From Sipunculus nudus (Eukaryota > Annelida > Sipuncula > Golfingiida > Sipunculidae), in assembly GCA_026874595.1 (NCBI GenBank), contig CM049310.1:39871558-39935557 (forward strand): a DNA stretch of 64,000 nucleotides, in the 5' to 3' direction. Below are positions 1-46,498 of the stretch, piece after piece. The position numbers and the translations under genes were made by a program. The notes beneath the pieces are model-generated. The model was not told the origin of the DNA, searched no databases, and worked only from the letters and a program-made list of their open reading frames with translations. How positions within the stretch are numbered: the first letter of the stretch is position 1; each line of letters begins with the position of its first letter.

Positions 1-279
1 TATGTTTACAGTATACTACAATACTTAATACTTTTAACTGGCAAGCACCATGAACGAACTGAAGTGTAACTTTAGCATCAATTAAATTACACTGTCGTTA
101 TTGGTAACATCTTTATTTTGTTTTTTTACTGGCTGGTATTAGTACAGGTTGTACCAGGCCGTTATCATAAACCACGTGATTTAGGCTGGACGATATCGTT
201 ATTTCCTCAGTAGTTATATATACTTATCTTTATACGTATCCTTGAATTTGACCCCGACCATCAATATAAATATTTTCAC

Positions 280-1166
280 CTCTCCGTTGGCGTCGTGATC
301 TATTTCACTAAATGCAGCTTCAGGTTTAAAGTCCTCCCGAATAAAATGTCTATATGTTTTTGTTTCAACTGAAAGTTAAAAAAAATCCGTTAAAGCAAAA
401 ATTGACTCCAAATATATGTGATATTTGAATACATATCAATATATCGATCACTGCAACAAAAGCTGTCTGATTGGTGTCTCTAACAAGAATCGATAATCTA
501 TCGATCTGCACGGTTATCGGTATCTATGAGAAGATTCGATATAAATTGAATAATTCTTACAACACTTAAAGCATATATGTGTTTTGAAAAGTCTTCTTTT
601 TCATAGTAGAAAAACAAATGACGAATGGCCCAAACCCGACTGAAATTCGATATTTAAATCGTTCACTGAACCCAAACCAATAATAGATATGGGTATATAT
701 TACGTGTAGGCGTAATTTGTTCAATAATCGATATTTAAAATCCTTCCAACGGGCCACCATTGCCTTCATCGCATTCATTTCTTACCTGGAAATGGTGAAA
801 TATCCGTAACACATCTCACTTCCTGCTATTATCCGGAATCTACGTTAATGTGGTATACCATTGTCTTCGATTATATGCGACTGTCTGAAACCCTTGTATC
901 ATTCGACAGTTTACGATATAGTTTATAGTCGAAGTGTGTAAAATGTAAGGAACGGCCGAAATATATATATGCATTTGTATCGCTGTGAGGCCTGCCTTCT
1001 TTTGAGTACCTTTTGAACAGTCACTTTGAATTCATCTAAGGATATATAATTATCAGTGTTGTGGTGAGAGTCGTGCAAGGCAGCCCAGAAGGACTTTGCC
1101 GCTTCCATCATGACGGCGCGTTCTTCAATCTTACGTGTTATGGCGTCGCATTTTCTTGCACGTTTA
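280..1166 (-). pseudogene. Gene 0: 3' part of patatin/EF-hand paralogue, frameshifted (partial)
   Basis: Two exons on the minus strand match exons 8 and 9 of genes A and B. Exon 8 is 1010..1166 (157 nt, same length and phase as in A and B, acceptor ttccag, donor gtactc) and encodes the helix and EF-hand 1, whose loop is degenerate (His at position 1, but N, D and final E kept). Exon 9 is 280..368, only 89 nt where A and B have 90. Its first 11 codons match the family in one frame (ending LFG) and the last 19 match in another (EDF to a DHDANGE EF-hand loop), so one base is missing near codon 12 and the original frame soon meets a stop. Exons 10-12 would lie left of the window. I could not find exons 1-7 between 1166 and 11000, so the copy may be truncated or have very diverged or distant 5' exons. 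It is either a pseudogene or carries an assembly indel. Confidence 0.75.
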
Positions 1167-11077: not shown

Positions 11078-11089
11078 CTTTTTATTCGC
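11078..11089 (-). terminator. AATAAA overlapping the gene A stop codon
   Basis: The minus strand reads GCGAATAAAAAG: the TAA stop (11084-11082) lies inside an AATAAA hexamer (11086-11081). Gene B has the same layout. If used, the 3' UTR would be only about 10-30 nt; this is not shown by the sequence alone. Confidence 0.35.
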
Positions 11090-11147
11090 AGTTACTATGC
11101 TTTTGTACATATTCTTTCAGGAAAGCCAAGGTTGCAATCTCTCCTCT
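11082..11147 (-). CDS. Gene A exon 12: C-terminus and stop
   Basis: 66 nt including TAA. Encodes RGEIATLAFLKEYVQKHSNCE; aligns with gene B exon 12 (EAATIAYLQEYIKKHP). Confidence 0.87.
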   Translation of the reverse strand, partial: RGEIATLAFLKEYVQKHSNCE

Positions 11148-14100
11148 CTAAAAAAAAATTAAAACATTAGATTAAACCTAAAAGATCATGATATATGGGG
11201 CATTTTCCATTTTTATTTCAATTATACATTTATAAAGCATGCACTGCAAAGGTACAGTCTTTTGTCAACGGTATTGTTTTGTAATCATTCTGAAATTATC
11301 GGCGTACAGCAGGACCGTAATCAGGGAAGTGCCGCAGCCCCCCCCCCCCCCTCTGTTTCATACATTACTGATGAAAAAGTTAGTGTCATTTTATATACTT
11401 TAATTTCACATAAATAAAGTGATCTCAATACCTTCTACCGGGACATTCATGACAAATCAGTTGGACTGCCCACAGATTGTGACATTCATGCTTTCAACAG
11501 CGAACAGCACTTCTTTCAATTAGTTGTTTATTGGTTACAATTGTTGTTGTATTTTCGGGTATTTTGCAGCATCAGGCCTTTAAATCCACTGAATATCTTC
11601 ATATTTCACTTTTTTTATTTTAAAGATTCAGTTGCTAAGATAATCACAAAGTGTGATTTTACAAATTTTGTTTGTACGATATTTTTTGCACAAACCCTTT
11701 CTTTTAATTACCCAATAAACTTAACCTATCCCTATGATAACATTGTTATCACTCTGTGGTTCGCCTATTTGCATTTGCCTTTCTTATAAAAGATTATAAT
11801 AAAAAGAAAGATAATACATTCACTTCTTTGCCGGATATATAATCTGCTGAAACCAACCTCTAGTATGAATTCGCGATCTTTGGTTTCCAATGCAAAATCA
11901 GTTGCATCAATATAATCGGTGTGGATTCCAACTGTGCGATGGACATCTCTCGGCTGCAAAAGAAACAGAGAATACCTAGGAGTATAACCGTGCGATGCAC
12001 ATCTCTCGGCTGCAAAAGAAACAGAGAATACCTAGGAGTATAACCGTGCGATGCACATCTCTCGGCTGCAAAAGAAACAGAGAATACCTAGGAGTATAAC
12101 CGTGCTATGCACATCTCTCGGCTGCAAAAGAAACAGAGAATACCTAGGAGTATAACCGTGCGATGCACATCTCTCGGCTGCAAAAGAAACAGAGAATACC
12201 TAGAAGTATAACCGTGCGATGCACATCTCTCGGCTGCAAAAGAAACAGAGAATACTTAGGAGTATAACCGTGCGATGCACATCTCTCGGCTGCAAAAGAA
12301 ACAGAGAATACCTAGGAGTATAACCGTGCGATGCACATCTCTCGGCTGCAAAAGAAACAGAGAATACCTAGGAGTATAACCGTGCGATGCACATCTCTCG
12401 GCTGCAAAAGAAACAGAGAATACCTAGGAGTATAACCGTGCGATGCACATCTCTCGGCTGCAAAAGAAACAGAGAATACCTAGGAGTATAACCGTGCGAT
12501 GCACATCTCTCGGCTGCAAAAGAAACAGAGAATGTCTAGGAGTATGACACTCCCCTCTAAGTCCAAATTTTGTTGGACCCTCCCTAATGTCCCAAATGGA
12601 GAGGTGTACATAAGTAACTTATCCATGTATTTCAAATAACCGATGCAGCTATTATGTCGAAATTTTGTAGACATGAAGATGATTACACTTGCAGGGAGTT
12701 GAGCCGAGGATTCAAAGCCGGGAGATTGTGAGCTCGAATCTCAGCCGAGGCGGTGAGATTTTTTTACGACAGATCCCAAACCAGGGTGAGCGCTCTGCAG
12801 GCTTAATGGGAAGGTCGTGCCCAACGGCACTCATTTCACTCATAATCGAGTGCGCTTTTCAGGGGTTCCTCGAAGGTATTACCCAGCAACAGGGACGATT
12901 ACACACCCAAGGCCCGCAGGTGGAGTAGTCACTGGGCCTGGTCAACAACAGGATATAAAGGGCGTGAGATACTGCCCTGTCATGTACAGTCGGAAGCCGG
13001 AAGGGAATTCTGCAGGTGTACATTTACCTTGATAAGCCAGAATATAAACAGATGATTACACTCCTTGCGCAGCGGTCGCATTTCATTTCGGTAATATATT
13101 TAATTCGACACATGATATATACTTTAAGGATATACTAGGCACGTACTTTAAAGTCTAATTTTATATGTGTCACTTTTAGAAAAAAAAATCCTATATCAAG
13201 TAAAATGCAAAGGTCTAATGTGACATGTTTCACTTTCCAAAATAATCCTAAATTATTTACAAGGTATAGTTAGGGGCGTTAATATGTACATACTTTAATC
13301 GTCAGCCCAACAAGGGTTGCATCAATACTGTTGAGAAGGGCTGCAGTATAACCAAATATACCCTTGACACTGCTTGGCCATATAGCATCCTCTATCGCCG
13401 CCCGGAATGGGAAGTTACGGCTGTCCATGAACCGTATCAACTCATCGTGAGTCAACTGCAAACAAACGTCATATTACTAAATAATGAAGGCATGGTCATA
13501 AGTGTATTAACCTGAAAAGGGGGGGGGGGATGGTTAAAGTTAAGTGAAAACTATATAAGCAGTTTAACTTTTTAAAATCAGCTGGAGAGTATGAGGTCAG
13601 AGGTAACAGTCTATAAGCATGCTGGTAGGTGAAACACTTAATGTGCAACGTTTCTCTATTTAATTTCTTGCGTGTCCATTTAATGTTGATGTTAATGGGT
13701 CCTATAATATTCATGATTTAAAATTAGTGTTAACCTAGGTACATCCAAAAAAGTCGTTGATTTGAGATAAAGCATTGCTCGATGAATTAATCTATATTAA
13801 GGGTAAATGTTAGACTCGATCAACTGGCAAAACAAATCCCTAAACCCAGTACCTGGCCGTTACCATCGAGATCTAACTCCTTGAACACTTCGTCGGCGTG
13901 GAAGTTCTGTCCAAATAAAACGTCCAGATGATGTTGTTCTACCTGTAGACATATAATATCGTATTTGTCTGTTTTACGTATGTATTTCTGATATCACTAG
14001 AGAGAGAACTGCCATTTAGGTTGTTTCGGAATAAGCTGATTTGTGCAGCTGTTTTGATGCATATAAAATCATCTCATCGTAGTATCATTTTGGGCAAAAA

Positions 14101-17100
14101 AAATAAAGGCATGGTTCTCAGGCACCGCCCGCGTCAATTTTAAACCCCCGCATCAAAAATTTTATTTTGATTTTAAATAGAAACTTACCAATTTTGAGCT
14201 CCAGCCGCTCGGACATTTCTTTCAAGAAGATAAAATTATATAATTTTGATAAAATTTCCTTTGTTATGTACTGCTTTTACTCGTTTAGTAAAATAAATAT
14301 ATTATTATCATGCTTTTCCCTTATCATTTGACATTTTTATCAAAAGATACAAAAAAAATTAAAAATAAAAAAAAAAACCGCCCGCCCGCATTGATTTCTA
14401 AAAAAAAGTACCTGAGAACCAAACCTGATTTTTTTGGCCTTACTACATATATTTACCTGTTGATTCTGAGGAATGGAGCCGTGATAACTGAAGTTAAAGA
14501 AAGGTATGCTAAAGGATTCATGTACTCTTTAAGGTTGTCTTATTGTTTAATCATGGATTTTCCGCCTCACAGCCAACTCTGAAGGTTCCATGTACTCTTC
14601 CACGTCCTACTAATAGCATGAAGCCATTACATTCGCCTTGAGAACATATATTTATGTTCTTGTGTACTATTTCTGTATTATTAAGAGATTATACGTTTTT
14701 GAACTAAGAATATAGATACATATATATTGGCTTACCATAACTGGACTGCTTAGGTCTAAATAGAATGATATACCAGAAATTATTATTGATTTTCTCCCTT
14801 CCACAGATATATATCGAATGGAGCATAAAAGCCCACCCAAGGATAGGTAGAACGGTTACTAAAATGTATACCTTCATATATATCTAACATTTGAGTCAAC
14901 CTTAGTGCCTAGTTAATTTGGAACATACCTTTGTCACTGCCAGCTTGAATTCATCATTCGATATCAGACTGTCGCCGTTTGTATCTGACTCATGCAGGGC
15001 TGTCCAGAAGGCTTTTGCAGCGTGGATCATAATGTGCCGGTCTTCAAGTTCTTTCAGCATCTTGTCACAACCACGTGCACGCTTTCTGTAGGATTAACAC
15101 ATTATACCAAATTGGTAAAGTAAACAGAATCTCTGGTGGATATATTGGAATTAATGAGAAGTGTGGCACCTATGATGCCGTGCCACTCGTGAGGTTTTCT
15201 AGATATCCCTTTTCATGTTGTCGCAAACATCAACCCCAGCCAGGACAATCCTCAAGCAAATACCGATCAATACAGCTCTATAACTATGATCTTATTTCAA
15301 GTTTCCTAGGAGATTTGCCTAGGATCTCCCCGGATTAGAAATTTCTAGGTCTAATGGTTATACGACTTGTGCCCTGTTAACGGCAGGACGAACGACTGAC
15401 AAAGGGTGGTCGCTATAGCTGACTGTAAGTCATCTGAGCTTAAAACAGAAATCACGGGGAGTACGTTACACGGGAAAGCTAATCAACTTGTATAATAAAA
15501 TAGCCGTAACATTATCCCTTGAATACATCTATTTATGGTGATCCAAATTTCACATAAAAATTGATGGAATGAGGGTAAAATTTATTACCTCTCGCCAAAA
15601 TTATTGTTCACATATGCCTCATGATAATCGGCGACACCAATAGCTCATTCAGGCAATTTACATCTATTCAGTAAAAACAGATGTCTTAGAGAAGATGGTA
15701 AGGTTTATATTTGGATAAAAAATGAACCAGTCAAAAAATATATCAAAGATTAGTTTCAATCTTGAGGCACTTATCCGGTTTGTCAGCCAAACCCCGGATG
15801 CTTGTACCACTTATTTTGGCAATTCAATCGTTAAACGGTAAATCGACGACAAATAATAACTTTGTGCTTTTATAGACCACTAGAAATATAAAATGAGTAT
15901 TGTAGCATGTACAAAACGAGTTTATCGTAATGGCTGGATTTACAACACATGGCGCTTGGCGCCTTTGGCTAATAGATCAAGTAAATATCGGAATAAAATG
16001 GACAAGTAGTAATTTGCTGCATTGAATTTATAATTGATTTTAGACAAAGACCAACTTGTCAATATTCGGTATTTATTGATGGAACAGAAGTAGAAATTGC
16101 ACAACAGTATAAATACTTAGGTGTAGTATTATATGATAGGCTCAAATGGGATAGAAATATAAATATAGTATATCGTAAAGGGCAGCAGCGTTTATACTTT
16201 CTAAGGAAATTGAAATCGTTTAATATGAATAGTAAACTACTTGTTTTATTCTATTCTAGGATGGTCCTGGTGGAAAAAACTGATCATTAAGAACAATAAG
16301 AAAATTGAACGGATAAAAAAGCAAAGCAGAAAATGTTATTGGTTTTAATTTAGAGGACATAAATATTAATTATAAAAATAAGGTTATGAATGTGATTACA
16401 AGAATGGATGATGGTTAAGGCTTGCTCAGTGATTATATTGTGTGGTAAAAATTAGGCCGATGGTTGAAGTCTCGTAAATGCAAAACAGACAGGGACTGTT
16501 TTAAGGAGTTTTTAAGTTTAAAGTAACATATTATAAAAAAAAAAGACTAAAATAATTCTCGTTAAGTGAAGGACACATTTCATCTATTCAGTTATGTATT
16601 TTGATCAAATCCTTAAAACCAACCATTATCAACCGTTTAAATATGAATAGAATTATAAATATAAATAAAAATATTCACTTTGCCAATTTGGTGTTAGGCC
16701 TCTCCAGTTTGACGCCATCATATCTTTTTTGTAGGGCCATGTACGAAGTACAAAACATTCCGGTAGGGTACTGAAACAACAAACAAGTCTATGTTGTATC
16801 TTAGCCGTATTAACAGTAGAAGTAGTAGTAATGATAATGAATATAATATTAACCACAAAACTTGGTAGGAACGCCTTCATATTTTCATTTTATCCTACAC
16901 ACAACGACCATAATATATAAAAACGATGAGAACATCACCTACAAAAACTGTACAATAAATGCGCCAGTAAAAGAATTAGAAAATCTTAAAATCACATATA
17001 TATATATTGTTTCAGCTGGTATTGTATAAATCATTATAGACATATATCCTGACATTTAATTAATAGATGTAATTATATTCTAATTATAAGGCAAAGCTTC

Positions 17101-20100
17101 AATAAAGTTAATGTGCATGCGGAGCCTATAAACCCCCTTCGTAATCACACTTGTGTATACACATGCAACACCACGCGACAGTCACACGAGTTTTTGAACC
17201 TGGGCACAAAAGAAACCCGGTGTATTGTCATGTGCTAGCCTGTAGACTACCTTTTTTATTTGTGACTCACCGAGATAAAGCCAAGCGTTTTATCATTATA
17301 TTCTCCAAACCTGTCCTCTTCCTCTCCCAATTTGTTTAGGAAGACGTCCTCCGGTTTCATTGACAGGTACCAACCTTATATATATATATATGCGCATATT
17401 CATACAGGCATCACTGATAACAACAGGTGAAAGGTGATTAAAAATCATTTATTACGACAAAAGAAACAAAATGAATCCAAATAAAAAAAAATCAACGGTA
17501 TATACATAGTAGAAAATGCTTTAACGTAAACGTTAATTGGAAATACAACTTCGGAGAAAGTGGCCAAATGAACGATAATGGAGTAAAGAACCCCAAAAGC
17601 GTCCTCGAAGAGAGCCTTCAAATATGTCAATTCTTCGTAGAAAGTTGTTATAACATTGTTTCGTTATGTCCTACACCAAGTGTTTCGAATATAGGTGATA
17701 AATACATATGATATACATATGTCCTGAACATACACTTACTTTTATCCCCCCAAAAGTCAAATTTTAAAGTACAAAACTGTACACGGCATTTATACCAGAA
17801 GAATAATATATATGTCAGAATTATGATCCAAAGGACGAAAGTGAATGTCCTACCATCGTACGCATACAATGGGTAGTTGCACAGGACTCCCCCGTCTACG
17901 TAATAATGAATGCCGTCCTCCAGTTCTTTAACCACTGGTTGAAACACCCCTACAATGAGTAGAGTAAAACCTGTGTTGTCAGTCCAACCGTGGGACTGGC
18001 CTGAAGTGAACTTTATTAATACAAAGGTGGTCTTAACACACAGGTCAGTTACAACCACTGCGAATGCTCTGGGTCAAGACAAAGTGGTCTACTTAGACAG
18101 ATGGTCTTTGTGACAGGTTCCGATGTACATTTAAAATATCGCATTGCATTAATGATTTACTCCGATCAAATTATGGATCCATAGTTTCTCTGTGGCAGTT
18201 TCTGTACAATATTTACGAAGGTAACAAGACTGTTCCGCTGTACATTTAAAATATCACATTGCATTTATGCTTTCCTCGGATTAAATTATGGATTCATAGA
18301 TTCTCTAAGGCAGTGTCTATTCACAGTCGCTCGAATCCCTATTTCAGGGGGAAATGGGTAGAAACAGTGCATATTACACCTCTATAGTGATACATGCTAT
18401 CTCCGTACGAAGTAAGGCATTACTATACACTCATATATAGTGCACGGTTTCGTCCATTTTTCGATAAAAACAATCACAAATAGGATTTCGAGCGACTGTG
18501 GTCTATTCAATATTTACGAAGGTAACAAGACTTTATAAGTTAAAAATATCACATTTTATGTGGAAGCTAGGATATATGTGACAATAGCCAAAGTATTCGA
18601 AAGGTAATTACTGAATCTAAGTCCTCCATATCCTCATCACTTACCGTTAAATATTCTTAGCACAATTTTAATAATGCAGCTGCTACCTACCTGGTATTGA
18701 GACTGACATCCTCACTGCCTCCAGTATAGACATGTTGGGCGTGGTCTTCGGGTGGCAAAACGAGGCCTTTTGTGTGCTGACGTCACAGGCGACAATACAA
18801 AGCTCCGTCCCCTGCTCTTTGTACAACTAAGAAACACATATACGCACAGGCGAAAGTCAAATTGCCATTAATCTGAGCTTCACACAATAATGTTTATATA
18901 TCAAACAAAATTATATGTTATTTTATTATGTTAGTTATGAAGTTATATAGTTGGTAGATATATCTTGAAAAAAATACAGGTATTTCAAATTTCAGAGGCC
19001 ATTGGGTTGGTAATGACTTTTTTAAATGACGCGGTAATCACGTCATCGGGATAAAGTCATAATATATATAGGAAAGCGTGGGCTACGTTGTCCTGTTTGG
19101 CTCCAAATGCTGGAAGAAATCCATTACATATCCGCTCATGGTTAAACATAAAATCTTAACTCTTCACCTGTCCAAACGTTATGTCCGGTTTGCCTAACTT
19201 TTTCATGACAATACTCCGCATGTGATTCGTAAATCTGTCACCAGGGTTCCATCCGAACCTTCGAACCATGTTTGGCACCAAAGAGCAGCAGCCCATGAAC
19301 GCATCTGAATATCACATAAAATATATCACATGTGTTGTTGCATAGAAAAGTGCATAGTGCATAGAAATATACATAGTGTTGTATGCTCTGGGGAGGCCCA
19401 TGTTTGGCCTATATTTTGTCGTTATTTTAGTAAAGTATACCCTGCATGTTATGTAATATTTCGTGACAAAATGGTATATTATATATCATGATGTTAAACA
19501 AATATAATGTTACTATACATTACATCGCTAGTTTATATATCATATGATATAATAAAATTAATATATAATATAATACTCAATAATATAATGATATCTAATC
19601 TATAATCTTATTATTTTGCATTTCATTGACAAACCACGCATGTCATCAATCGCATTAAGCCCCCGGACCTACGCGATAGGACACGTCATTTCTGGTCCAT
19701 ATCGCTGCCGGTTAGTACAGGTTATATCAGCCTGGCACGCGAACCGTCTCGGAATTAAATTAACCAGCATCACTGGTTCCTCTTCCGGGGGTCGGAGGTT
19801 GCGGCTCCCTGTCTGAAGGTAAACGGGAATGGATACCGGAGGGAACTCTTTTATTTTGACAAAAATTACTTACGTAAAGGATGTCTTTGTGATACGTATG
19901 CGTAGCTACAAAAATTGTATTTCGTGATTTGGAAGGACCAATTATATTTTACTCTACTTTTTATACATTAATATTTTACATTATTAAATAAACTTTTCTT
20001 TTTTAAAATTTCATATAATGTATTAATGTAATGTTGAATACTCATGTTTTAAAACAACATGAATGTACAGGGTTCATTCCTAAGTACCCCGCCCCGGGAA

Positions 20101-22621
20101 GAGATTGACAACATGATGGGACCCAGGATGTGTGAGGTTGTTTGCCCATGTGCATTGTTGATGTGTTTCACTCAAGCAGTACGTGAAATACTTCGACCGT
20201 ACGGCTGGCTGTATGCGTTGTCGTTTAATAAAAAAATATTATGAACCGACTTGTTAAACATCAATTGGCTCCCTATGAGAATTAAGGCATCTACTGAAAT
20301 AATCAAAACATTGAAATCAAATCATGTTGGTATGTGTTTTAGTTTTCATTTTACTACATTTATCATTTTAGTTTTTTTATCAGATTAATCTTATATATAA
20401 AACTGATTGAATAAACTGTTGAAATAAGGACCACAAACGATATGTGTTTTGAACATTTTGTCTTATCCTCCGAAACATCAGATATATTTATTAATTTTAA
20501 CACATATAGTCTAATATATTATTATGTTATATGTTATTATACATGTATCACTATTATGTATGTCTGATATTACGAAATAATCTCTTTCTATCTATGTTTC
20601 TTACCACTGGCCAGTTTATTGAAGTCTATTGTGTATGCTTCAATTACTTCCTCCATGTCACAGCCAATGGCCAAAAGCAAGGCAAAGATGGCGCCTCCGC
20701 TTGTACCAGCGAATTTCTTTATCTGTTTCAACATTCCGATTTCATCCATGATCTGGAAAGGAGTGATACACTGTGCAGTCGAAGAGTACGACGCTGCTGT
20801 TTAGGGTTTATGAGCGTCGTAGTCTGGCCCCCATAATGCATCGCGGCTTCTACACACACTAACACACAAACACTCATTTATATATATATATTAAAATATT
20901 TTTCAAATTCTTGCCATAACACCAGTTTAGCGTGATTTCTTCCGTGACCTTAATAGTGTCAAGGTCATCTGTATCCTAACTTGAAATATCCCTTCATGTG
21001 GTGTATCAACGATGCGAGTCTCGTGAGTATGCCTAAGATTCTTTTCAGGTTATGCCCCAGGACCATTTACAATGATCGTCTCTACATGTGACCTTGAAAA
21101 ATGGTCATTATATTCGAACCTGACCTAGCCCTTCATATGGTGCATCAATGGTACGAGTAAGGCGATTGCATTTTGTGTTAAAGTAATGGCGTTTCGGATT
21201 GACGAACGAATGGCGAGACGTAGGGACGCTCACCATTTATCCCCCCCCCCCCCCCCCCCCCGCAAACCCGACAGCGTCTTCGGCGGCAAGGCGAGACGTA
21301 GGGACGCTCACAATTTATGCCCCCCCCCCCCCCCGCAAACCCGACAGCGTGTTCGGCGACAGCTTGCACATATCAGCCACAAAGGAATTGTTCAGAATTG
21401 GCATTTAGCAAGTCAGTCGAAAACTAGTGAAGATGTGTAACCTACGTCTGACAGCAAATAAGAACGCCGAGAAAACATGAACTATTTTATGTTGCATCTA
21501 TGACATTTTTATTAAATTTCTTGGGCCTTTGTCAAAAAGCACCTTGTAACAGACGACATCAGCAGATTTGAGATCGTTTACTCTCCATCGGCTTCAGCGA
21601 TGCACCATCTTGAAATTGACTTAAATATTTTGTGTCAGGCGCAAACTTAATAACACTTTCAATTCAGTACAGCGAGGAATCAAAGGCTTTCAACGTAAAG
21701 TGACACCTCATCTCAAGTGCGCCCTAAAACCAACTCTGAAGTCGAATGCGTCCTTAAACTCCGAATACGCCTTTTCGGAGAGTTACAACAGAAAAGGGAA
21801 ACTGAATGTTTGAAAGCGATCTTTCCCTATGAGGCATAACCTTGTCATTTCCGTATTCCACGACGAGAATACACCAGCGAAGGCCAGGAACGGAGGAAAT
21901 ATGAAAACTTCCCTCTGCATCGAGTCGAACTCACAAAAGCACGTCCCTGCGATCAGGATTGTGGGTAAAGGAATGCAATGGAGCTTCATCAACGGCGTTA
22001 TTATATATGTAGTATATTAAAATATATAGATTTAGGACTGTTTTGAGGCTATTGAAAATTGATATTATTTTCGGTAAGAAAATAACCAATAAAGTTATGA
22101 TTTACAAGCATGCGTATGTGCAATGTAAACAGAATGTCTTTTTCATGAATTGTCACTATAGCTCTGATTTTGAAGTTTTTCAGGTGAGATAAGTCGTCCC
22201 GGCTAACCCCATAGTCTCTAACTGGGAAAGGTTTAATTTGAATAAAACCGTCCTATGGCGGAAGGATGCGTAATCTTAACCTATTTTCCCACGAAGGTCG
22301 TACAACAAGGTTGTTTATGTGCATGCTGCCAGCAAATTTCAAACCCATTTCTCCCAATCCTACTCAGTCTTTCTACTGTAGCCCCGCTATAAATGTACGT
22401 AACACAAAACGTTTGTGGCAGGGCCTTACCATAAAGAGCTGGTACAGTGAACTTGAACTCACCTTACATGCTCCAACATAAGTGTACGTTCTGCTACCTC
22501 CACCAGCAAATGCAAGATTTTCAAACGGGAAGTCAAAGTTTTTCACTTCCGGAGGGATTTCTGGATGTCTTTCTTTGTATCGCTTAGCCGCCTGAGCCCT
22601 CGAGCTTGCCTCGTTACCCAT
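11082..22621 (-). CDS. Gene A: patatin-like lipid acyl hydrolase with EF-hand cassette, 12 exons, 480 aa
   Basis: Exons in transcription order: 22463-22621, 20605-20752, 19168-19304, 18691-18826, 17854-17949, 17271-17374, 16679-16770, 14929-15085, 13853-13942, 13294-13455, 11858-11953, 11082-11147. They total 1443 nt and join in one open frame with GT donors and AG acceptors throughout. The ATG has an in-frame TAA 27 nt upstream and a good start context (accATGG). Residues: MGNEAS at 1-6 (likely N-myristoylation), oxyanion GGGSR at 40-44, nucleophile GTSGG with Ser71, catalytic Asp212 in DGG, EF-hand 1 loop 325-336, EF-hand 2 loop 367-378, patatin C-terminus about 390-480. Patatin-like enzymes cleave acyl groups from phospholipids with a Ser-Asp dyad. 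The substrate here is unknown, and control by calcium is inferred from the EF-hands. Gene B follows upstream in tandem. Human PNPLA proteins lack this EF-hand arrangement, so no symbol is given. Confidence 0.9.
11858..11953 (-). CDS. Gene A exon 11: patatin C-terminal strand
   Basis: 96 nt, phase 0. Encodes HRTVGIHTDYIDATDFAL, the RT-x-x-I-x-T...TDF pattern of patatin-domain C-termini. Its 3' splice site is the source of the 56-bp array immediately upstream. Confidence 0.9.
11943..12546 (-). repeat. 11 x 56-bp tandem array duplicating the exon 11 splice acceptor
   Basis: Eleven units with exactly 56-bp spacing. Read on the gene strand, every unit carries a pyrimidine tract and TTTTGCAG followed by CCGAGAGATGTGCATCGCAC, that is, the 3' splice site and first bases of gene A exon 11. 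The unit nearest exon 11 is the real one (it reads ATGTCC instead of ATGTGC); the other ten are intronic decoys. Units differ by only one or a few bases, so the expansion looks recent. Confidence 0.95.
12690..13025 (+). repeat. Possible tRNA-derived SINE (gene A intron 10)
   Basis: The head contains gtgagctcgaatctcag, close to a Pol III B box, preceded by a weaker A-box-like gagccgagg. A unique-looking body of about 300 bp follows. No second copy is in the window to prove dispersal. Confidence 0.4.
13294..13455 (-). CDS. Gene A exon 10: second half of EF-hand 2 and return to the lipase domain
   Basis: 162 nt, phase 0. Begins LTHDEL, whose Glu378 is loop position 12 of EF-hand 2, then FMDSRNFPF and a hydrophobic helix (GIFGYTAALLNSIDATLVGL) like the helix before the last strand of patatin domains. 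Confidence 0.9.
13853..13942 (-). CDS. Gene A exon 9: first half of EF-hand 2
   Basis: 90 nt, phase 0. Ends DLDGNGQ, the first seven residues of a canonical EF-hand loop that is completed in exon 10. Confidence 0.9.
14093..14444 (+). mobile_element. MITE family M1, copy 2 (gene A intron 8... upstream of exon 9)
   Basis: Ends are inverted relative to each other: aaaaaataaaggcatggttc at the left and gagaaccaaacctga...ttggcctta at the right. It lies in the intron between gene A exons 8 and 9. Confidence 0.7.
14929..15085 (-). CDS. Gene A exon 8: EF-hand 1
   Basis: 157 nt, phase 2 to 0. Encodes a basic helix (KRARGCDKMLKELEDRH), AAKAFWTALHES and the loop DTNGDSLISNDE. The ligand positions 1, 3, 5 and 12 are D, N, D and E; position 6 is Ser rather than Gly. 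Confidence 0.9.
15285..15465 (+). mobile_element. Solo right end of the pearl/Helitron-like repeat (gene A intron 7)
   Basis: Contains one core monomer (tttcctaggagatttgccta ... gattagaaatttctaggtc ... gacttgtgccctgttaac), the GGACG-rich spacer and the terminal hairpin found at the ends of the elements at 23211-26280 and 36853-39030. The hairpin loop is inverted relative to those copies. Confidence 0.7.
16033..16290 (+). pseudogene. Non-LTR retrotransposon reverse-transcriptase fragment (gene A intron 7)
   Basis: An open stretch with no start codon encodes AQQYKYLGVVLYDRLKWD and KGQQRLYFLRKLKSFN, motifs typical of the C-terminal part of LINE-type reverse transcriptases; it ends at a TAA (16288-16290). 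No other part of the element is visible. Confidence 0.8.
16679..16770 (-). CDS. Gene A exon 7: linker into EF-hand cassette
   Basis: 92 nt, phase 0 to 2, acceptor gtttcag, donor gtgaat. Begins Y-P-T and contains QKRYDGVKLERP, aligning with HKRIEGMKVMRP of gene B exon 7. It supplies the two bases needed to restore frame with exon 8. Confidence 0.85.
17271..17374 (-). CDS. Gene A exon 6
   Basis: 104 nt, phase 1 to 0, donor gtgagt. Encodes GWYLSMKPEDVF and RFGEYNDKTLGFIS; the KTLG strand is a late patatin-domain motif. Confidence 0.88.
17854..17949 (-). CDS. Gene A exon 5: catalytic Asp212
   Basis: 96 nt, phase 1 to 1. Encodes YYVDGGVLCNYPLYAYD; the DGG motif supplies the dyad aspartate of patatin-like enzymes. 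Confidence 0.92.
18124..18560. repeat. 116-bp tandem duplication, second copy split by a MITE
   Basis: gtacatttaaaatatc starts at 18124 and again at 18240; both copies run to ggcagt...tatttacgaaggtaacaagac. The second is interrupted by the element at 18322-18500. Confidence 0.8.
18322..18500. mobile_element. 179-bp MITE with 7-bp target duplication (gene A intron 4)
   Basis: Inverted ends CACAGTCGCTCGAA / TTCGAGCGACTGTG, flanked on both sides by gtctatt (18315-18321, 18501-18507). The sister copy of the surrounding duplication shows the corresponding empty site. A hAT-like origin is possible. Confidence 0.88.
18691..18826 (-). CDS. Gene A exon 4
   Basis: 136 nt, phase 0 to 1. Encodes a core strand (ELCIVACDV) and HPKTTPNMSILEAVRMSVSIP, the segment that in patatins leads to the catalytic Asp. 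Confidence 0.88.
19168..19304 (-). CDS. Gene A exon 3
   Basis: 137 nt, phase 1 to 0. Encodes LVPNMVRRFGWNPGD; the GW(N/H)PG motif is shared with genes B and C. Confidence 0.88.
20605..20752 (-). CDS. Gene A exon 2: nucleophile elbow (Ser71)
   Basis: 148 nt with acceptor ttccag and donor gtaag, ending in phase 1. Contains KKFAGTSGGAI, the GxSxG elbow with the catalytic serine as AGC, followed by a hydrophobic helix. Confidence 0.92.
21205..21350. repeat. About 85-bp tandem duplication with poly-C tracts
   Basis: ggcgagacgtagggacgctc, a poly-C run and cgcaaacccgacagcgt occur twice; the C runs are about 21 and 15 bases. It lies between gene A exons 1 and 2. Confidence 0.8.
22463..22621 (-). 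CDS. Gene A exon 1: N-terminus and oxyanion loop
   Basis: 53 codons, ends at phase 0 before gtgag. It encodes the MGNEASS start, a basic/charged linker, the family motif FDFPFENL (residues 29-36) and the glycine-rich oxyanion loop GGGSR before a YVGA strand. Confidence 0.9.
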
Positions 22622-34797: not shown

Positions 34798-34887
34798 TTA
34801 ACTTTCGTTCTCCGTTGTTTCTCCGTTGTTCTCCGGGTGTTTCTTTATGTATTCTTGCAGGTAGGCAATCGTGGCGGCTTCTGCTTG
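34798..34887 (-). CDS. Gene B exon 12: C-terminus and stop
   Basis: 90 nt including TAA, 8 codons longer than in gene A. Encodes AATIAYLQEYIKKHP then an acidic/Asn-rich tail. An AATAAA lies immediately after the stop (34792-34797). Confidence 0.87.
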   Translation of the reverse strand, partial: QAEAATIAYLQEYIKKHPENNGETTENES

Positions 34888-34903
34888 CTGAGGATTAAAT
34901 ATA

Positions 34904-34953
<50 letters not shown>

Positions 34954-35729
34954 TTTAACTTAAAATAATCAATGATATGCAAGCAGCTTTAGTGCTTATG
35001 CACGTACATGCTCAAGAACACATGCTTGTTGCTAAGCAAAGTGAAAATCAACTATCCACATGTAAAGAATATATTAATACATATTAAGGGACTTTCAAAT
35101 ACGTATATTGAAAAAATTTATATTGAGAGCCTTTATGTTTGAATCAAACATTCATGTATACATACGTTTATGCGTAATAGTGTTTGTCGAAACCAGATAA
35201 CTGTTCAAATATAATATGGCAGTTGAAATGTTAGGATTTAAATTTTTAGATAACGGCTTTTCTGGGACACCCAGGGTAATTTTGCCCATCAAATTATTCT
35301 TACAAGTATAAGCAGTGTATGAAATGGGGCTCGTCGGGAACAAAAAAGGACTTATCTATTATAAAAATAAATTAACAATATTGGTGCACTGTTTACATCT
35401 AAACAACACCGGTCTCAACAGTTTGTTTCATATTGGACAGAAAAGCTAACGGCGCAAAAGGGGACATTACTTGTCATTTTGGTTTTTATGAATCTGTCAT
35501 ATGACCACTGGTTATGTAATGAAATTTACCTTATTCTAAAGTTATTTATATTTCATATTTCATTATCGTAAAATCCCTATAATCCATACTAACCTTCACC
35601 AAGAAATTCTGATCTCCCACAGTCAGCTCAAAGTCCGTCACCCGGATGTAATCCGAGTGGATGCCGATGGTACGTTTAATATCACGATTCTACGAAATAA
35701 GATGACATAAATAGTCGTCGTAGTTATAT

Positions 35730-35779
<50 letters not shown>

Positions 35780-38700
35780 TAATAATAATAATAAAAATTG
35801 TTCCATAGAGATAAAAAAAGATGTTCTTTCCATAAAGTTTATAAACGCAGAACAGCTAAAGTAAAAACAATGGGAATATATAAAAACTAAAGTTAGTATA
35901 TGTACCATTTATATTGAAACCTGTCCAATAAAGCCCAAAACAGACTAACGCGCGTCACGCGACAAATTCAAAACACACTAACGCGGCTACAACGCGCACA
36001 ACACGCGTTAGATTGGATGGTATTATCCAAGCACCTATTATTTTTTTTGTTTATCTTTGTAAAAATAGTAATTTCGATAATCAGCGTTGAATAACTTGTA
36101 TACAAATATATATCTTTTGAGACCTGTTTTAAATATGACAGAACTCACTATTCTTAACGATATTTATATATTTGTGTTGCTTTGTTGCACGTTTTCTATC
36201 CAGATACAAATCAATAATTATAGTTCAATGAATTGTAACAAACGTTTCACCCGCAGTTTTATATAGAACTTGAGTGCTGGGGAGGGTAACCCTCTATTTA
36301 GTTATGTCATAATCAGTAATCTCCACGCGGCTAGCGCGCGTCACGCGTCAAAAATCGCTCCAGGAACAATAGCTGACGCTAGCCGCTTGACGCGCGTCAC
36401 GCGCGCATTAGTCAGTTTTGTCATTACTAAATACAGTGGAGCGACTTTTTCCAGATTTGACGCTTGACGCGTGACGCTTGACGCGCCCGTGACGCGCGCG
36501 TTAGTGTGTCTTGGGCTTTAGACCAACCTAGCTACTGATAAAAATGGTCTTAATTCACAGATTGGTCTTGTATAATCAATGTCTCAGTATTATCAGTGTG
36601 AATGCTTTGGTTCAATCAATCGTGGTCTTATTGGATAAAGTGGTCTTTCAGACAGGTTCCACTGAATTAAATACCTTTAAGAGCAGATCTCCAACGGCTA
36701 ACTCTATACAAGCAATAACGGCAGAGGTGAACTGGAGGAAGCCCTGTAGAGGAAGAGGGAACGGTGTCCCCTCGATGGCTTCTCGGAACGCGACACCTCT
36801 CTGGTCCATGAAGGAAATCAGCTCCCCAAACGTTAACTGAAGTAAAAACAAAACAAGTGGCCCATGGGCCATGACGCTCAACTAATTTTGACTGGGTGCT
36901 CATTTTTTATTAATGTTATATCTTGTCTGTGAGAATAGCATATGGCTAGAGGTTACTGTATTGAAAAAATGGAAAAATAAAAATTTCAGGATTCATAGGA
37001 GAACTGCCCAGGACCCCCCTCGAATTTCACAATAGAGGGTTCCAAGGAAAATGGATACAATGTGTACCCAGTCTGTCTGGGTTTTGAAAATCATGTTTCT
37101 GGTCCAAAGCTAGCAGAGTATAGGTCACCATGCATGATCCAATTTCAGGTTTCAAAGGAGAATTGCCAAGAATTTCCCTGAATGTCATTTTAGAAGGGTC
37201 TAGGGCTAATGGATACAATTTGTGCCTTGTCTGTCTGGGTGCTCAAAACCATTTTTCAGCCCATAGGTCACACAATATAGGTCACCATGACCTGATTTCA
37301 GTTTTCCAAGTACACTTGACTAAGACCTCCCTGAATTTTATGTTAAAAGATTCTAGGCCTAATGGATATAATATGTGCCCTGTCTGACTGTCATGACATC
37401 TTTTCTGATAGGTTGCAAAATATAGGTCATGGTGTCCTAATTTCAGTTTTCAAAGGGCACTGACCAAGGATGTCTCACAATGTTACATTAGAAGATTCTA
37501 GGCCTAACGAATACAATGTTTGCCCTGACTGACTGTCTGGGTGCTTATGACTTCTCTTCCTAAAGGTCGCAAAATATAGGTCATGGTGACCTAATTTCAG
37601 TTTTCCACAGACATTTGCCAAGGACGTCTCAAAATTTTACAATAGAAGATTCTAGGCCTTACAAATACAATGTGTGCCCTGCCTGACATAAAATTTATGG
37701 GTGCTCAAAATCTTGTTTTCGGCCTGTAGGTCACAAAAATGTAGGTAACCATGACCTAATTTCAGGTTTCCAAGGAGATTTGCCTGGGACCTCCCAGGAT
37801 GTTGCATTAGAAGAATCTAGGACTAACAGATGCGATTTGTGCCCATCTGATAAACATGTTGCTAAAATCAGGTTTTTTTTTTCTTGTAGGTCACAAAATA
37901 TATGTCACAATGAACTAATTTCAGGTTTCCAAGGAGATTTGCCTAGAGCCTCCCAGGAAATTGTGCAAGAAGATTCTAGGCCTAACAGATACGATTTGTC
38001 GCCATATGAACTTTAGGGTATTCATACGATATCTTTTCCCTCTAAGTCGCAGAAAATAGGTCACAGTGACCTTATTTCAGGTTTCCAAGGATATTTGCCT
38101 AGGACCTCACTAAATGTCACATTGGAGGATTCTAGGCCTAATGGATACAATTTGTGCCCCATCTGACTGTCTTGGTGCTCAAAATCATGCTTTGGCCCAT
38201 ACGTCACAAAATATAGGTCACAATGAACTAATTTCAGGTTTCCAAGGAGATTTGCCTAGAAACGCCCAGGATATTGTGTTAGAAGATTCTAGGCCTCACA
38301 GATACGATTAGTCCCCATTCGACATTCAGGGTGCTCATATGACATCTTTTCCCTATTGGTCGCAGAATATAGATCACAGTGACCTAGTTTCTGGTTTCCA
38401 AAGACAATGTGCCTAGGACCTCCCTAAATGTCACGTTGGAGGATTCTAGGACTTATCGATATACAATTTGTGCCCCGTCCGACTATCTGGTTGCTCAAAA
38501 TCATGTTTTCCGCCCGTAGGTCATGAAAAATAGGTCATCATGACCTAATTTCAGGTTCCCAAGGAGATTTGCCTAGAAACTCTCAGGATATTGTGTTAGA
38601 AGATTCTAGGCCTCACAGATACGATTTGTCCCCATCCGACATTCAGGGTGCTCATATGACATCTTTTCCCTATAGGTCGCAGAATATAGGTCACAGTGAC

Positions 38701-41700
38701 CTAGTTTCTGGTTTCCAAGGACATTTGCATAGGACCTCTCTAAATGTCACGTTGGAGGATTCTAGGACTTATCGATATACAATTTGTGCCCCGTCTGACT
38801 ATCTGGTTGCTCAAAATCATGTTTTCGGCCAGTAGGTCACAAAATATAGGTCACCATGACCTAATTTCGGGTGTCCCAGGAGATTTGCCCAGGACTACCC
38901 TGGATGTAGAGTTAGATGTTTCTAGGTCTAACAGTTACGATTTGTGCCCTGTTAACGGCCAGACGGCCGGACGGCCGCCGGAGAAAGGGTGATCGCTATA
39001 GCTCAGATGACTTACAGTCAGCTGAGCTAACAAAACTGAAGTTTAAACAAAACCTTGGATATAAGTATAAGATATGAGATACCGCGAAATATTATATCAG
39101 CGCCAAATTAGAATTCATAAATGGAGCCAATAGGAGTACTTGTAACTGTTCGTTGGTGCACCATTTGAAATTAACTCCTCGTACATTACTGAAGAGTTAA
39201 GTTGGCATTCCATATGGGAGTATTCGGTACGTATTCGTTACGTATGCGTATGCAGCTAGGAATAGCACACGTTATATTCTCTCAGAGTAATTCCATATAT
39301 ACGTATGTGTGTATACGTCTGCATATGCAGTATATTTCGATTCAGGAAACTTTTATTTTTGAAAAACGCATACGCATGGTAACAGACGGGGAACTTACAA
39401 ACGTTGACGTCAGTGACAGGGTTGACCTCTGGCACATGGCATTTCTACTCATTCAGCTCTATACTATAGGCCTAATTTTTACTGCAAACGTACCACATAC
39501 ACATACGTATAAATGGAATCACAGGCGTCCGTTTTCTAGCTGCATACGCAAACGTACTGCATACGCATACGTACGACATACGCATATATAGAATAATATG
39601 CAATTTTTTTTTTGTACTGAAAGGAAATCAGTCCTAGTTGATTGCTGAATACTATAAATGTAACGGGAAGAAAATGATTATTGAAGAAGATTAAACTGGT
39701 AACCTGCGTTATTACGTGCACCTGCCCTCAACCAATCATTCTCTCATAGCTATGATTGGGTGAGAACAGTAGACTATAATAGCACGGGGTACCAGTCTAG
39801 AAGAAGATATGCAAAAGACAAAAAAAATGATTATTGGTTAAAGTACAATCCGCTAGAAAACTCCAGCTGCTTTTAAGTGTATGCATGACATTTTTACATT
39901 CACATATGCTTCCGCCTGAAAACAACCAGTTTTACTTCTGAACCGAAATGTTCATTTACCTGTCCATCACCATCAGCATCCATGGATTTAAAAGTCTCTG
40001 CAATGTCAAAGTCCTCACCAAACAAGAATTCCAGATCTTTCCTTTTTACCTGCAATAACAAGATCGCTCCCATTAGTTATACGGTGGAACCTCTCCTTAC
40101 GGGCACCTTTGTGCTAAGGGCACCTCCTAGTTACGGCCACTTACGGGCAGTCCCTTGAAAGTAGGTCCAGAAATTTATAACCTCTCTAATAAGGGAACCT
40201 CTCCGGGCAAAATGTTCGGTCCCGTCAGTGTTCGTAATTCGGGGGTTCTACAGTATATGGTGAGAAATCATTTAATAACCTACATGCCATCTTTTTCAAA
40301 CCCAACTGGATCTAGTGCTTGTTCAGCGATAAGTCTTGGATTCTAGAAAAGCTTAATTTGACATCCACTATTAATGAAGTCATTGTGTAAACCATCCAAG
40401 CGGCTTATGTAGAACAATACGCCAACTCAAACATCGCACTTTCTAATCACTTGAATGACTATTTCTAAGAATTTTTTTTCAAATTATCAAAACCTCATTA
40501 TGTAACAATTTATTTGATTATTTTTTTGGTATTCTGTTTAACCGTCCTTGGTTGGTATTTGTTGGTTGTTTTTTTTGTTGGTTAATTTGTCTGATTTTGT
40601 CAACTTTACTCATTTTATCATGAAATTCGTTGAGGGTCAGAGTGAAACTCTACCTTGCTGAGGGCCTCGGTGAATTCCTCTAGCGTTATCTGTACGTCCG
40701 CGCCGGTGCTGTTACCATGCAGGGCGGTCCAGAAGGACTTGGCGGCGTCGATCATGACCTGTCGATCAGCGACCTGCTTCATGATCCGGTCACACTCGTC
40801 TTGGCGGCTCCTGCGGGCCAGTTATAATACAGTAATCCCTCGTATATGCATGCCTCGTTAATCCGAATATGGATTACCCGGTAAATCAAAACTGGTAACT
40901 TTTAGTTAGACATTCAATGGTTAAACCAGACCCCAAGATACACATTTAATATACCGGAATGTGTATTCGATTTACCATTATGCTATGTCTAATCTCTGTG
41001 GTGTATATTTTATCCATTTTATGTGTAGCTAACTTTACCCAGGACTATATTTAAAAAAAATCCCAACAAATAAGCTGAATAGGCTATTTTGGTAAAACAT
41101 GTTTGTAAATAAAATAAAAATAAAATTAAATAAAATAGTTGCACGACATTAACATGGCCAAGTCGTCCTGTCTTATATGTGTGTACTTGCCCTGTACATA
41201 AAAATGCCCAGCCGACTCGAATAATTAATAACATAATTTTAGTGTATTTTGTTAAGAGAAAACAGAATACTTCAATGGATCTAATTATAAAATATGACCA
41301 TTTTATAATCATTGCCATGAACCTGACAGATACCTCTTGGTGCAATAAAGGTTATAGTAGCAGTATAATATATTGTGTTAAATGATAGTGAACAAAATAT
41401 CACCAGAGATGTTCGGATGTACAGAGCATATATTTTCACATATTCAGAATATATGGTAATTAAGGTATCAACTGCGTTGAGATGCAACAGTATTAAAGAA
41501 TATTAAAGAACCAAAAAAATGTATGCCTTGATTTAATTTTTGCCTAATCGTTGTTTTGAACCGTAATGTATCAGAGTTTATTAATTATATCATCAATGAG
41601 AAATAAATTTTCATTAACTCACGTGGAAAGAAAGGTGTATGGTCTCATTACTTTCATGCCCTCAATCCGTTTGTGCAGTGGCGATCTCAACATGTTCGTC

Positions 41701-44700
41701 TGATTGGTTGAGTACTAAACAAAGGGAACATTCAAATGTTGACCGAACGGAGTGAATGTGTATCATACAGAATATAAATCAGAATCAAAATATGAAATAA
41801 TGAAGGTGTGAACATTTAACGCCAATTGCATAACTAAAATGTATACTCTATACATAATTTGTGACAGGAATATAGAACATTATTATTTTATGAGATGGTG
41901 GCTTTGGTGGATGGGGGCGTCAGCGTCAGGGTTTCATCTCACATGCGGAGCAGTCAATACTCATAAGAGGCAGGTTCGGCACATACAAATCCTACACCAC
42001 TCCGCAACAACGTGTGAACTGACATAAATGAAACCTAGTGTCTGATTTTCAATTACTATAATAATAATTTTTTTTTTTAATTTTGCATTACGTAATCCAT
42101 GCAGGAGTATCTGAACTTTGTTTCATGCCGCCATGGGCTGGGTTTTACTAACCATCATCATTCCGAGGGTTTTGTCATTGTACTTTCCAAACCGTGGTTC
42201 ATCTGTCCCGACCTTGTTCAAGAAGGCGTCTTCATATTCCATGGATAAATACCAACCTAAAAAAGTACCAATAATTATTATAAGTTTTCTGTTTACCAGT
42301 TAGAAATCACAATAGTCTGACACGCGAATTTCATTCTCCAATTTATTTTTAGATTTCCAGTTGTCCTATTTAAAAAAAAATCCCCTCGCGGAATATTTAT
42401 ATAAAAATCTATGTATTTGAAGTCACTGGCCCACCATGTTTGACTTACGTATATAAGCATTTCTGGACATTAATTCAAATAAAAAAAAACATTTCAAGCA
42501 TGATAACGATTCGGCGCTGATAAGAATTGTACCGTATCATTACCATAAAATTAATCTCAACTCATTGCAAAACATTGCTATTACTCCATATATAACCGAT
42601 TGTTTAGTTACAAGTGATATGCCGTAGACATGTACTCCACGTAATAAAATGTGATTTTACCATCAAACGCGAACAGTGGATAACGGCAGAGTATACTTCC
42701 GTCAACGTAATACTGGGGACCGTCATTGTTCTCGATGGTAACTGGCTGATGAAATCCTGGGGAAACAAAGGAATTCACATAAACATGTTCATCAAATAGG
42801 GTTTAGATTACAATACCATTTATTGTATACGTTCATTCCGGATCGTGTGTGTGTGTGTGTTTGTTCACAAAAAAACTCACATATAGAGTTAAAATGTCAG
42901 CAGTCGTTTAATCCGTTGTGGATTACATGACATGAATTACAGTTGTGCGGTAAGAAATAAATGTAGCACTGAAACTTACAAAAGTGAAACTGACAACGAG
43001 TAACAACGATCCGTTCACATTGTAGGTATCACCACTTTACGGTGCATATAATTAATATATGCAGATCAGGATAATTTGTGATATAAAAAACCGTGTTACT
43101 AAATTTAAACCAACAGCTGATAACGAGGTTTTCAAACCTAAGTTCATATCAGGAAACAAGATGCGTTCTCATATACCAAAATATGACTTTTAATAGTATG
43201 ACCTACGCTTTAGACCATGCACATTATATATCCATCATAAATGTCTCTAGTGGTCCACATTCGACAACAGCAATAAATTTGCCAAATAAGAGATAAAGTT
43301 ATCAAACTAATCGTACAGTAAATTATTTTCAGAATAACGAAATTTTATGCTCAATGCTGAAATGGTATGAAAAGCAGATTTCTCAAAATAAGATTGTTTT
43401 CATGACAAGCATAATAAATTAAACTTTTAATAAATATGATATTACATTTTCCGTTTTCCCCAATGAAAATGATGAACAGAGAAATACCTACATATATTGA
43501 TTAGGGTCTGATGCAATTTCATAAACGAACCGGTACCTTTTAATCTGATTCTTAATTTATCAGAACGCATTAACAGTCGCGGATGTTCGGATATGCGAGG
43601 TTTTACTGTTTATATAGCAGTTTATTCCCCTACCTGGAACAGCCATGGACATCTTGATAGCAGTGATTAAAGGAACCCTGGGCGTGGTTTTCGGATGGTA
43701 ATATTCCGTGGATTTTCTGGATATGTTGCTTGTCACTATGCACAGTTCCACTCCCCGGAGTCTGTAGAGCTATCAAAAATAAATACACATAGAACACATC
43801 CTGTATCAGTGTAAGGCCTTAAATGGTCATATTGATGCTTGTTTTTACACTGGGGGCGTCCATGTAAGAGAATAGGGGTATATATTTCCCCATTTTTTTA
43901 GCAAGTGGAGGCTAGGAAGATCAATGTAATCAACCCCCCCTCCCTTATCTATTCAGAAAATGAAATAAATATATTGTAAATAACAATTTTGAAAAATTAG
44001 TATGATAGACTTTTGTTCCCTATCTACATTTCTGTACGATAGACCAGCATTAATAGATGGGTAATAAATTTTTGCCGGATGGGCATTCCACATCCCTGAT
44101 GCAAAATCCGTACATAAAGAATCTTAGCGTTATTACTTATAACTGTATGAATGATAATCGGTAAGGTATAAATAAATAACCCTCTACGTTTACGGTATAT
44201 TTGCATAATACTTTATATTTCAAAATGCCATAACATAACGGACGGACCTCGGCTTTCACTCGTCTTGTACTCCGCATATTTAGCTCTGAAATGCCATAAA
44301 CACCATCATCAGAGCTGGTCATATGACGATTTATCATCACAACCCATCAGTGTCTTCACTGAAGATGTTTGGGCCCGCTGCGACTTGTTACGTTCATTCA
44401 TTTTTGCAGTTTATCAAGGGATATTCCCGATTGGCATCGTCGACCAATCGTAGTTTCGTTCGTAATATATGTAATTTTTAGTTTTTGTGATAGTATAAAT
44501 ATCAAGTACTCAACTACAGTCGAATTATATATCATTGTTAAAAAAAACACCTTGAAACATTTAATGATTAAATAGGAGAGCCATAGAAGTATAAACTGCA
44601 TGACAGTATAGGGCACAAAGAAAAAACACCGTAGATATAGTAGAGTACTGTTGCTCCTGCTTTGTTTAAATGGAAACTACGACGTCAAAGGGCAGCAGTT

Positions 44701-46436
44701 GGACTGGCTTTGCCGAAGCACTTTGAGTCCAGTTTCTGTTTCGTTTGGCGAAGTTTTATTGCTCTTATAATATATTTCCATAGCTGTTGAAGCTGTAGGG
44801 TTATCAAGAATCTGTGCATGCTTTATCCAGTGAATTAAAGAAAAATTAATAGTTTTGGCTCATTATTAGTTGTGTATATACTTATAATAGCTATACCTCT
44901 TCAAAGGTGGTGTTGCCGTCTCCTAACTTCTCCTCTATAATTCTTTGAACTTCCTCCTCGACCTTGTTTCCTGGATGCCAGCCATATTTACGTATAAGGT
45001 TTGGCAGGATGGAGGCCCGGCCGAACGAAGCATCTGAAAATATCATTTGACTAGAAATGTGCATTCTCATGAATGCAGTCCTCCGCCAGAAGGGCGGTCC
45101 TTAATGTGGGGTCCTTAGCAGTTTTGTGAATATTCCTGGAAGTTCTTCCTGGATCGGAATCATGAGCCGGACCCACACCAAAATCTAATCGATTAGCCCG
45201 TTGCCGAGGTACCCTAGAAATTTCATGGGATTCCGTTCACGATTGCGTGAGTTATGTTGTGAAGAAACACCCACCAATACATACACCTAAACACACACAA
45301 ACACCCATGATCGGAATGAACGCATACCCTCCTGTACTGGCAGAGGCAATGATATTTTCAGGGGCGGATGCTGGATGTTAGGGAAGTGGTCTCTCAACAC
45401 CATGGCGCAGGTAAACAAGTGTGCTGGGGGCGCAAACTAGTAGAATTAATACAAAACTGTCTCATGCAGAGCATATAGGTAAGAAAATGTATGAAGAAAC
45501 TATATATTCACACAAGTGATTTGAGGCCAAGAGACTTTGCAAAGAAATCTATATGAGCTTCTGAATATAGGAATTTCTTCTTTTTTGGCTAAGTCAGGAG
45601 GTTATGCGTTCATCCAGTGTGTGTGTGTGTGTTTGTTAACAACGTACCTGACGTAACCTTATAAAATTTTCAGGGCATTTCGAGAATCGGCCAATGAAAA
45701 ATCGATTAGATTTTGGTGTGGATCCGGAACATGATCCGGATTCAGGAACGTAATCATGGAATATTCACAAATGTGCAGTCATTTATGCACGAATGAACCT
45801 GGGAATATGGGCCGAACAAGTTAATACTCACTCGGATACTCCTGCACGGCGGAGGCTTGCATTCTTTAGAATGCAGATTTCTAGTTTGAATTAATGGTTT
45901 ATGGGTTCAGGGTTGCCATTTTACCTGCCCTATACCAGTCTGTCTGAGGAATCGATAGTCCAGTGAACCTCTTATAGGAGAAGGTATAGCAGAACCTTGA
46001 ACACTATAAAGTACTATGACATAATTAATCGTCAGATGGTGCACATAAAACGATAGACACAGCAATAATGTTTTGAATTTTACAGTTTCATGTTATCTTA
46101 ATGAGGAAAGATTATACTTAACATAATTTTCATTTTTTTGGAGGAATTTCCTTTGAAAAAGACGGTTGTCCCTGAACCCAACATTGATGGACCAACTTAG
46201 TTAAACAAAGCCTGTATTTATTAAAAAAAACTAGAATTTGAATAATAAACAGCAATGTACTCTATAAATACCTGCGAGCAATGCGGTGATGTCCGCGGCA
46301 CATATCTTGTATATTTCCTCAAATTTACAACCCACCGCTACAAGTAAACAGATCAGGGCACCCCCGCCAGCTCCGGCAAATCTCTTGATGTTTTTAAGTG
46401 CACCAATATCCTGTAGCACCTATAAGAATTGTATAT

Positions 46437-46498
<62 letters not shown>

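Follow-up and report, generated by a model that had tools for sequence, protein, structure and literature searches.

The 64,000-nucleotide stretch of the Sipunculus nudus genome analysed here (GenBank assembly GCA_026874595.1, contig CM049310.1, positions 39,871,558 to 39,935,557; hereafter the window) contains, at 22621..11082 on the minus strand, a patatin-like gene whose product carries a pair of EF-hands. Profile comparisons and models of homologues support the conclusion that, in the predicted product of this gene (gene A), the EF-hand pair is nested inside the patatin domain, between the KTLG strand and the strand bearing RT-x-x-I-H-T and TDF. Lipases of the PNPLA/iPLA2 type are classed as calcium-independent. 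A built-in sensor would let a single polypeptide link lipid release to calcium signals, in lineages from sponges to amphioxus, and would place calcium-dependent enzymes within a superfamily named for calcium independence.

Gene A encodes 480 amino acids in 12 exons (22621-22463, 20752-20605, 19304-19168, 18826-18691, 17949-17854, 17374-17271, 16770-16679, 15085-14929, 13942-13853, 13455-13294, 11953-11858 and 11147-11082), separated by introns that are all GT-AG. Models lacking the 92-base exon 7, here and in the paralogous gene B, were rejected; in these, the phases of exons 6 and 7 did not agree and 30-40 residues were missing relative to homologues, which led to the exon at 16770-16679 in gene A and at 41714-41623 in gene B. 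The patatin signature consists of a GxSxG nucleophile elbow and a DG[GAS] aspartate, and an EF-hand loop has 12 residues with ligands at positions 1, 3, 5 and 12. Gene A has all of these elements. An AGGGS oxyanion loop (residues 39-43, 22493..22507) is followed by the elbow GTSGG (residues 69-73, 20693..20707) with Ser71, by DGG with the catalytic Asp212 (17885..17896), and by KTLGF (residues 254-258). Two EF-hand loops come next, DTNGDSLISNDE (residues 325-336, 14950..14985) and the intron-split DLDGNGQLTHDE (residues 367-378, 13441..13873), both of which satisfy the 12-residue pattern. RTVGIHT (433-439) and TDF (445-447) are encoded in exon 11 (11858..11953), which supplies the returning patatin strand and the beginning of the last helix, and ATLAFLKEY occupies residues 464-472. 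The order of motifs that an earlier note had read from this DNA was thus confirmed along the spliced product. Pfam matched Patatin (PF01734) to residues 36-221 (E 7.3e-22, 78.9 bits against a curated cut-off of 27.7) and EF-hand_1 to residues 359-384 (E 1.6e-10, 40.2 bits against 25.4), and with these E-values the matches are not due to chance. A 56-base minisatellite (11930-12545, 11 copies, 98% match) overlaps the 5′ part of exon 11; it repeats the 3′ splice site and first codons of that exon (TTTTGCAG and CCGAGAGATGT) 11 times in a row, before or at the real exon.

The Patatin match ends upstream of the EF-hand block, so Pfam alone, proposed in the earlier note as a check, finds both domains but cannot decide nesting and would mislead. 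Its end at residue 221 would suit a two-domain protein, in which residues 1-280 form a complete patatin and the EF-hands lead into an unrelated C-terminal domain. Gene A was compared with relatives that have no EF-hands, which were reached by using the core region of eight animal homologues as query. From the 120 matches listed, 36 microbial patatins were picked in which TLG and RT motifs were found by pattern 48-57 residues apart; the other 84 were mostly animal fragments, or sequences in which the motifs escaped the patterns or were misplaced by them (the spacing of EF-less P0219, for example, was read as 109). The commonest TLG-to-RT spacing among the 36 so chosen was 55 (19 of 36), compared with 179 in both gene A and gene B. 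In the family as a whole (genes A and B with the best 120 of 305 homologue matches, from 7997 best candidates scored) the median was 181, the spacing being readable in 111 of the 122 sequences.

When gene A was matched to a profile built from the 36 EF-less patatins, the alignment fell into two pieces, with residues 31-258 on profile positions 3-218 (E 1.5e-64) and residues 398-476 on positions 235-312 (E 7.1e-11). The 139 residues between the pieces face 16 profile positions, and define a block (residues 259-397, 13384..17276 with introns included) that is missing from EF-less patatins. This block is wider than the interval of about 281-385 first proposed for the EF-hand pair, and the calcium loops lie within it at 325-378. 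Across the 122 sequences, under the cut-offs applied, both pieces were found in 113, only the second in eight and only the first in one. Gene B and the mussel homologue P0025 are among the eight, their first piece having overrun the cut-off (in gene B, residues 32-314 aligned with positions 4-276); the second piece spans 404-476 in gene B (E 3.1e-9) and 392-469 in P0025 (E 1.8e-11). EF-less microbial proteins such as P0190, P0215 and L020 share with the family the whole catalytic fold, the motifs flanking the block, and a helix-strand-helix terminus with RT-I-x-T...TDF, and differ in having no EF-hand block.

Structural comparison, made on models of homologues rather than of the gene A product, gave the same picture. 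In the AlphaFold model of P0025 (predicted local distance difference test score, pLDDT, 89.7; predicted template modelling score, pTM, 0.85), residues 10-470 are spanned by alignments to solved patatins and residues 277-399 by alignments to EF-hand proteins. The solved patatins PlpD, AbCapV, CapE and Pat17 (5fya, 9kej, 9ioq and 4pkb) are chains of 253-357 residues that lie largely within the patatin match, and are not known to have EF-hands. A model of the EF-less relative P0190 (pLDDT 88.7, pTM 0.88) gave an equal patatin match without an insert: of the 253 residues of PlpD chain 5fya_A, 251 could be aligned with the model that has EF-hands and 249 with the one that lacks them. The homologues are thus predicted to have the patatin three-dimensional fold, and single-domain solved patatins align on both sides of the block; a complete fold in residues 1-280 with a separate domain at 390-480, the outcome that would have spoken for trailing EF-hands, was not seen. 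Together with the match of residues 398-476 to the terminus of EF-less patatins, these alignments rule out EF-hands that trail a complete domain and leave the two-domain protein very improbable indeed; the earlier proposal that the pair interrupts the lipase domain is supported. A long hydrophobic helix at about residues 400-425 was considered as a membrane anchor. This role is unlikely, since the stretch falls within the second profile piece and P0190 has a helix at the equivalent place (253-270, although with pLDDT 67-70).

The catalytic residues are conserved, with the serine present in 119 of 120 homologues and the aspartate in all 120. Only P0119 lacks the serine, and has glycine there, as does gene B. 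These two glycines would fit a family of non-catalytic calcium-sensor scaffolds derived from a lipase, but the near-universal dyad, both residues of which gene A retains, makes such a pseudoenzyme family unlikely. The second EF-hand loop is almost as strictly kept: position 1 is Asp in 117 of the 120, position 3 is Asp or Asn in 117, and position 12 is Glu in 113. Loop 1 is weaker, with Asn (80) or Asp (28) at position 1 and Glu at position 12 in 112. Under a strict ligand rule, 22 homologues pass with both loops, 89 with loop 2 only, four with loop 1 only and five with neither; gene A passes with both loops, gene B with loop 2 only.

From these sequences and models, control of activity by calcium is plausible, and we lean slightly towards a reading in which gene A encodes a myristoyl-anchored cytosolic lipase of an old family, whose hydrolysis or docking is switched by calcium at the nested block. 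The insertion, most simply a single event, would have brought a block of about 125 residues with the EF-hand pair into the catalytic fold at a short loop, which lies between the strand-helix pair downstream of the catalytic aspartate and the closing helix-strand-helix. The lipase would be kept at membranes by an N-terminal myristoyl group. Calcium bound chiefly by loop 2 would shift the helices of the nested block against the active-site mouth, which faces the membrane, and would thereby switch hydrolysis or docking; either activation or inhibition is conceivable. Alternatively, the pair may serve stability, dimerisation or partner binding, with calcium in a structural role or the EF-hands acting as a docking module, and catalysis may be calcium-independent as in other PNPLA lipases. 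The frequently non-canonical loop 1 would be in keeping with this, as would the low confidence of the insertion site in the EF-less P0190 model (residues 231-280, pLDDT of the block 57-79), but the strict retention of the loop 2 ligands and the recurrence of the EF loop patterns in 18 bacterial loci (described below) speak against it, and we hold it to be doubtful though far from negligible.

Membrane anchoring, the other part of the proposed lipase switch, is what the N-termini point to. Those of genes A, B and C, a third paralog in the window, are MGNEAS, MGSRYS and MGNSTS, and all fit MGxxxS/T, the pattern for N-myristoylation. Met-Gly begins 74 of the 120 homologues, 46 of which have Ser or Thr at position 6, and several begin MGNC. 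A precedent for calcium control is iPLA2beta (PNPLA9, 6aun), a patatin-type lipase that, according to the published account (PMC5823874), is inhibited by calcium and calmodulin, proposedly through motifs of the catalytic domain; the same account puts the acylated Cys651 on the membrane side, where the active site is entered, and Trp695 in the dimer interface. iPLA2beta differs from gene A in having ankyrin repeats and in that its sensor is a separate protein; its control needs calmodulin as a partner, and the nested family would carry the sensor within the same fold. Cys651 and Trp695 would lie in the stretch of iPLA2beta equivalent to the insertion region. If these positions hold, the EF-hand block would sit where calcium control acts in this cousin, with the sensor in the chain itself.

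Among the matches listed, EF-hand Pfam labels placed the nested layout in at least eight animal phyla. The holders include a brachiopod, an annelid, molluscs, echinoderms, hemichordates, amphioxus, cnidarians and the sponge Oscarella, to which the core search added a nemertean; vertebrates, arthropods and nematodes are not named among the best 120 of the 305 matches, no search dedicated to them having been made. When bacterial and archaeal genomes were scanned with the core, 66 loci were obtained, and an open reading frame was parsed in 65 (L021 excluded). In 18 of these (L001-L013 and L015-L019) a single open frame holds this TLG motif and, downstream of it, an EF loop pattern, with two loops in eight loci and one in ten, and the RT motif was recognised in 13. 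The pattern was absent from the other 47 parsed loci, several of whose reading frames are incomplete. The 18 bacterial genes are 42-49% identical in the core and, unlike genes A and B, intronless. All come from metagenome-assembled records, so that their labels (Pseudomonadota, Myxococcota and Actinomycetota) rest on binning. Neighbouring reading frames, one in each of six of the 18 loci, all matched NCBIfam families, among them EttA (L001) above its curated cut-off. Below cut-off, the family was elongation factor G in L003, peroxiredoxin in L016 and trehalohydrolase or glucan branching enzymes in L018. As judged by eye, L002 (3422-4672) and L003 (3322-4512) share a leucine-rich-repeat-like reading frame downstream of the nested patatin, a possible functional partner.

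A profile of the TLG-to-RT stretch from 13 bacterial members, in which the motif pattern had shortened the stretch of L002, matched all 122 family sequences (E 1.2e-32 to 1.7e-14 in a database of 122). The block, flanks included, is therefore homologous in bacteria and animals. No relative was found among 39 pattern matches in viral contigs. Judged by these sequences, the layout is found well beyond this animal, in bacteria too. With the block common to both, its origin and transfer become testable, and the EF-less relatives provide natural before-and-after pairs for the entry of a regulatory domain into an enzyme fold without breaking it.

An unrooted tree was built, with the insert columns removed, from 62 rows (22 animal, two of them genes A and B; 14 bacterial, drawn from the 18 loci with EF loops; and 26 EF-less). 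A branch with support 100/100 separated the EF-less rows from all EF-bearing rows. The bacterial EF-bearing rows were held together (100/99), and the animals formed one side of a branch with support of only 65/61; among the 20 animal homologues in the tree, Lingula grouped with genes A and B (99/84), a grouping that makes a lophotrochozoan source probable. With a root on the EF-less side, a single insertion event fits these branches; an unrooted tree alone cannot separate gain from loss. Given a single gain, gene exchange between bacteria and animals would be the simplest account. We tentatively extend this, at somewhat less than even confidence, to a class of self-contained calcium-switched patatin lipases that arose by one EF-pair insertion and passed between bacteria and early animals, the animals then gaining a lipid anchor at the N-terminus and, in this genome at least, expanding the genes into a local cluster.

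Comparison with described systems gave no closer match. Against the patatin effectors of CBASS and other antiphage systems in NCBIfam, scores were far below the cut-offs (CBASS_lipase, 24.2 bits against 200; DS2_1_antiphage, 24.5 against 400), and PADLOC phospholipase effector models, which are given no cut-off, matched the patatin part with up to 41.9 bits (E 1.8e-11). Ilborin (PMC8864356) is likewise a newly described invertebrate family that joins an enzyme fold to an EF-hand, but its fold is a TIM barrel and its EF-hand is C-terminal. It was rejected as a published description of the present family, the words patatin and lipase being absent from the text. No published description of an EF-hand patatin family was found in the literature searched, coverage of which was partial, with most subscription journals outside it. 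The family is apparently undescribed; its sequences and Pfam labels are already public, and what is new is the recognition of a nested family. The source names of the homologues are mostly 'uncharacterized' or 'hypothetical', and some are 'YqhO-like'. Some of P0005, P0011, P0013, P0024, P0040 and P0063, lipases of 500-700 amino acids, are labelled 'Calmodulin' in UniRef, apparently from their EF-hands alone.

Gene A belongs to a local cluster with genes B and C and a fourth paralog. Gene B (48133..34798, minus strand) lies beyond the interval 11082..22621 named in the earlier note, and encodes 488 amino acids in 12 exons (48133-47975, 46419-46272, 45033-44897, 43769-43634, 42756-42661, 42256-42153, 41714-41623, 40810-40654, 40049-39960, 36836-36675, 35689-35594 and 34887-34798). 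Exons 1-11 of the two genes have identical lengths (159, 148, 137, 136, 96, 104, 92, 157, 90, 162 and 96) and phases despite only 47% protein identity over 313 tree columns, and the two gene models thus cross-check each other. The Patatin match of gene B scored 84.7 bits on an incomplete gene model. Its elbow is GAGGG (residues 69-73, 46360-46374), with glycine in place of the nucleophile serine, and hydrolysis by its product is therefore probably impossible. EF loop 1 is degenerate (S, G and D at positions 1, 3 and 5) and loop 2 intact. Of the features noted earlier for both genes, gene A has the GxSGG elbow and both EF-hand loops, and gene B has lost the serine and one canonical loop. From its sequence, gene B is probably a paralog without catalytic activity, in which calcium binding may persist.

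Gene C (56010..57347, plus strand) is represented by its first three exons (56010-56171, 56773-56920 and 57211-57347), with a GASGG elbow. Five queries at E 0.5 found no further exons in the 6.6 kb up to the end of the window, and gene C has either a long intron or is truncated. The EF-hand exons of the fourth paralog run off the left edge of the window on the minus strand, with approximate limits of 277..1165. A weak match to exon 4 (E 0.01-0.2) near 6813-6742 has in-frame stops on both sides, and the upstream part of this paralog may have decayed.

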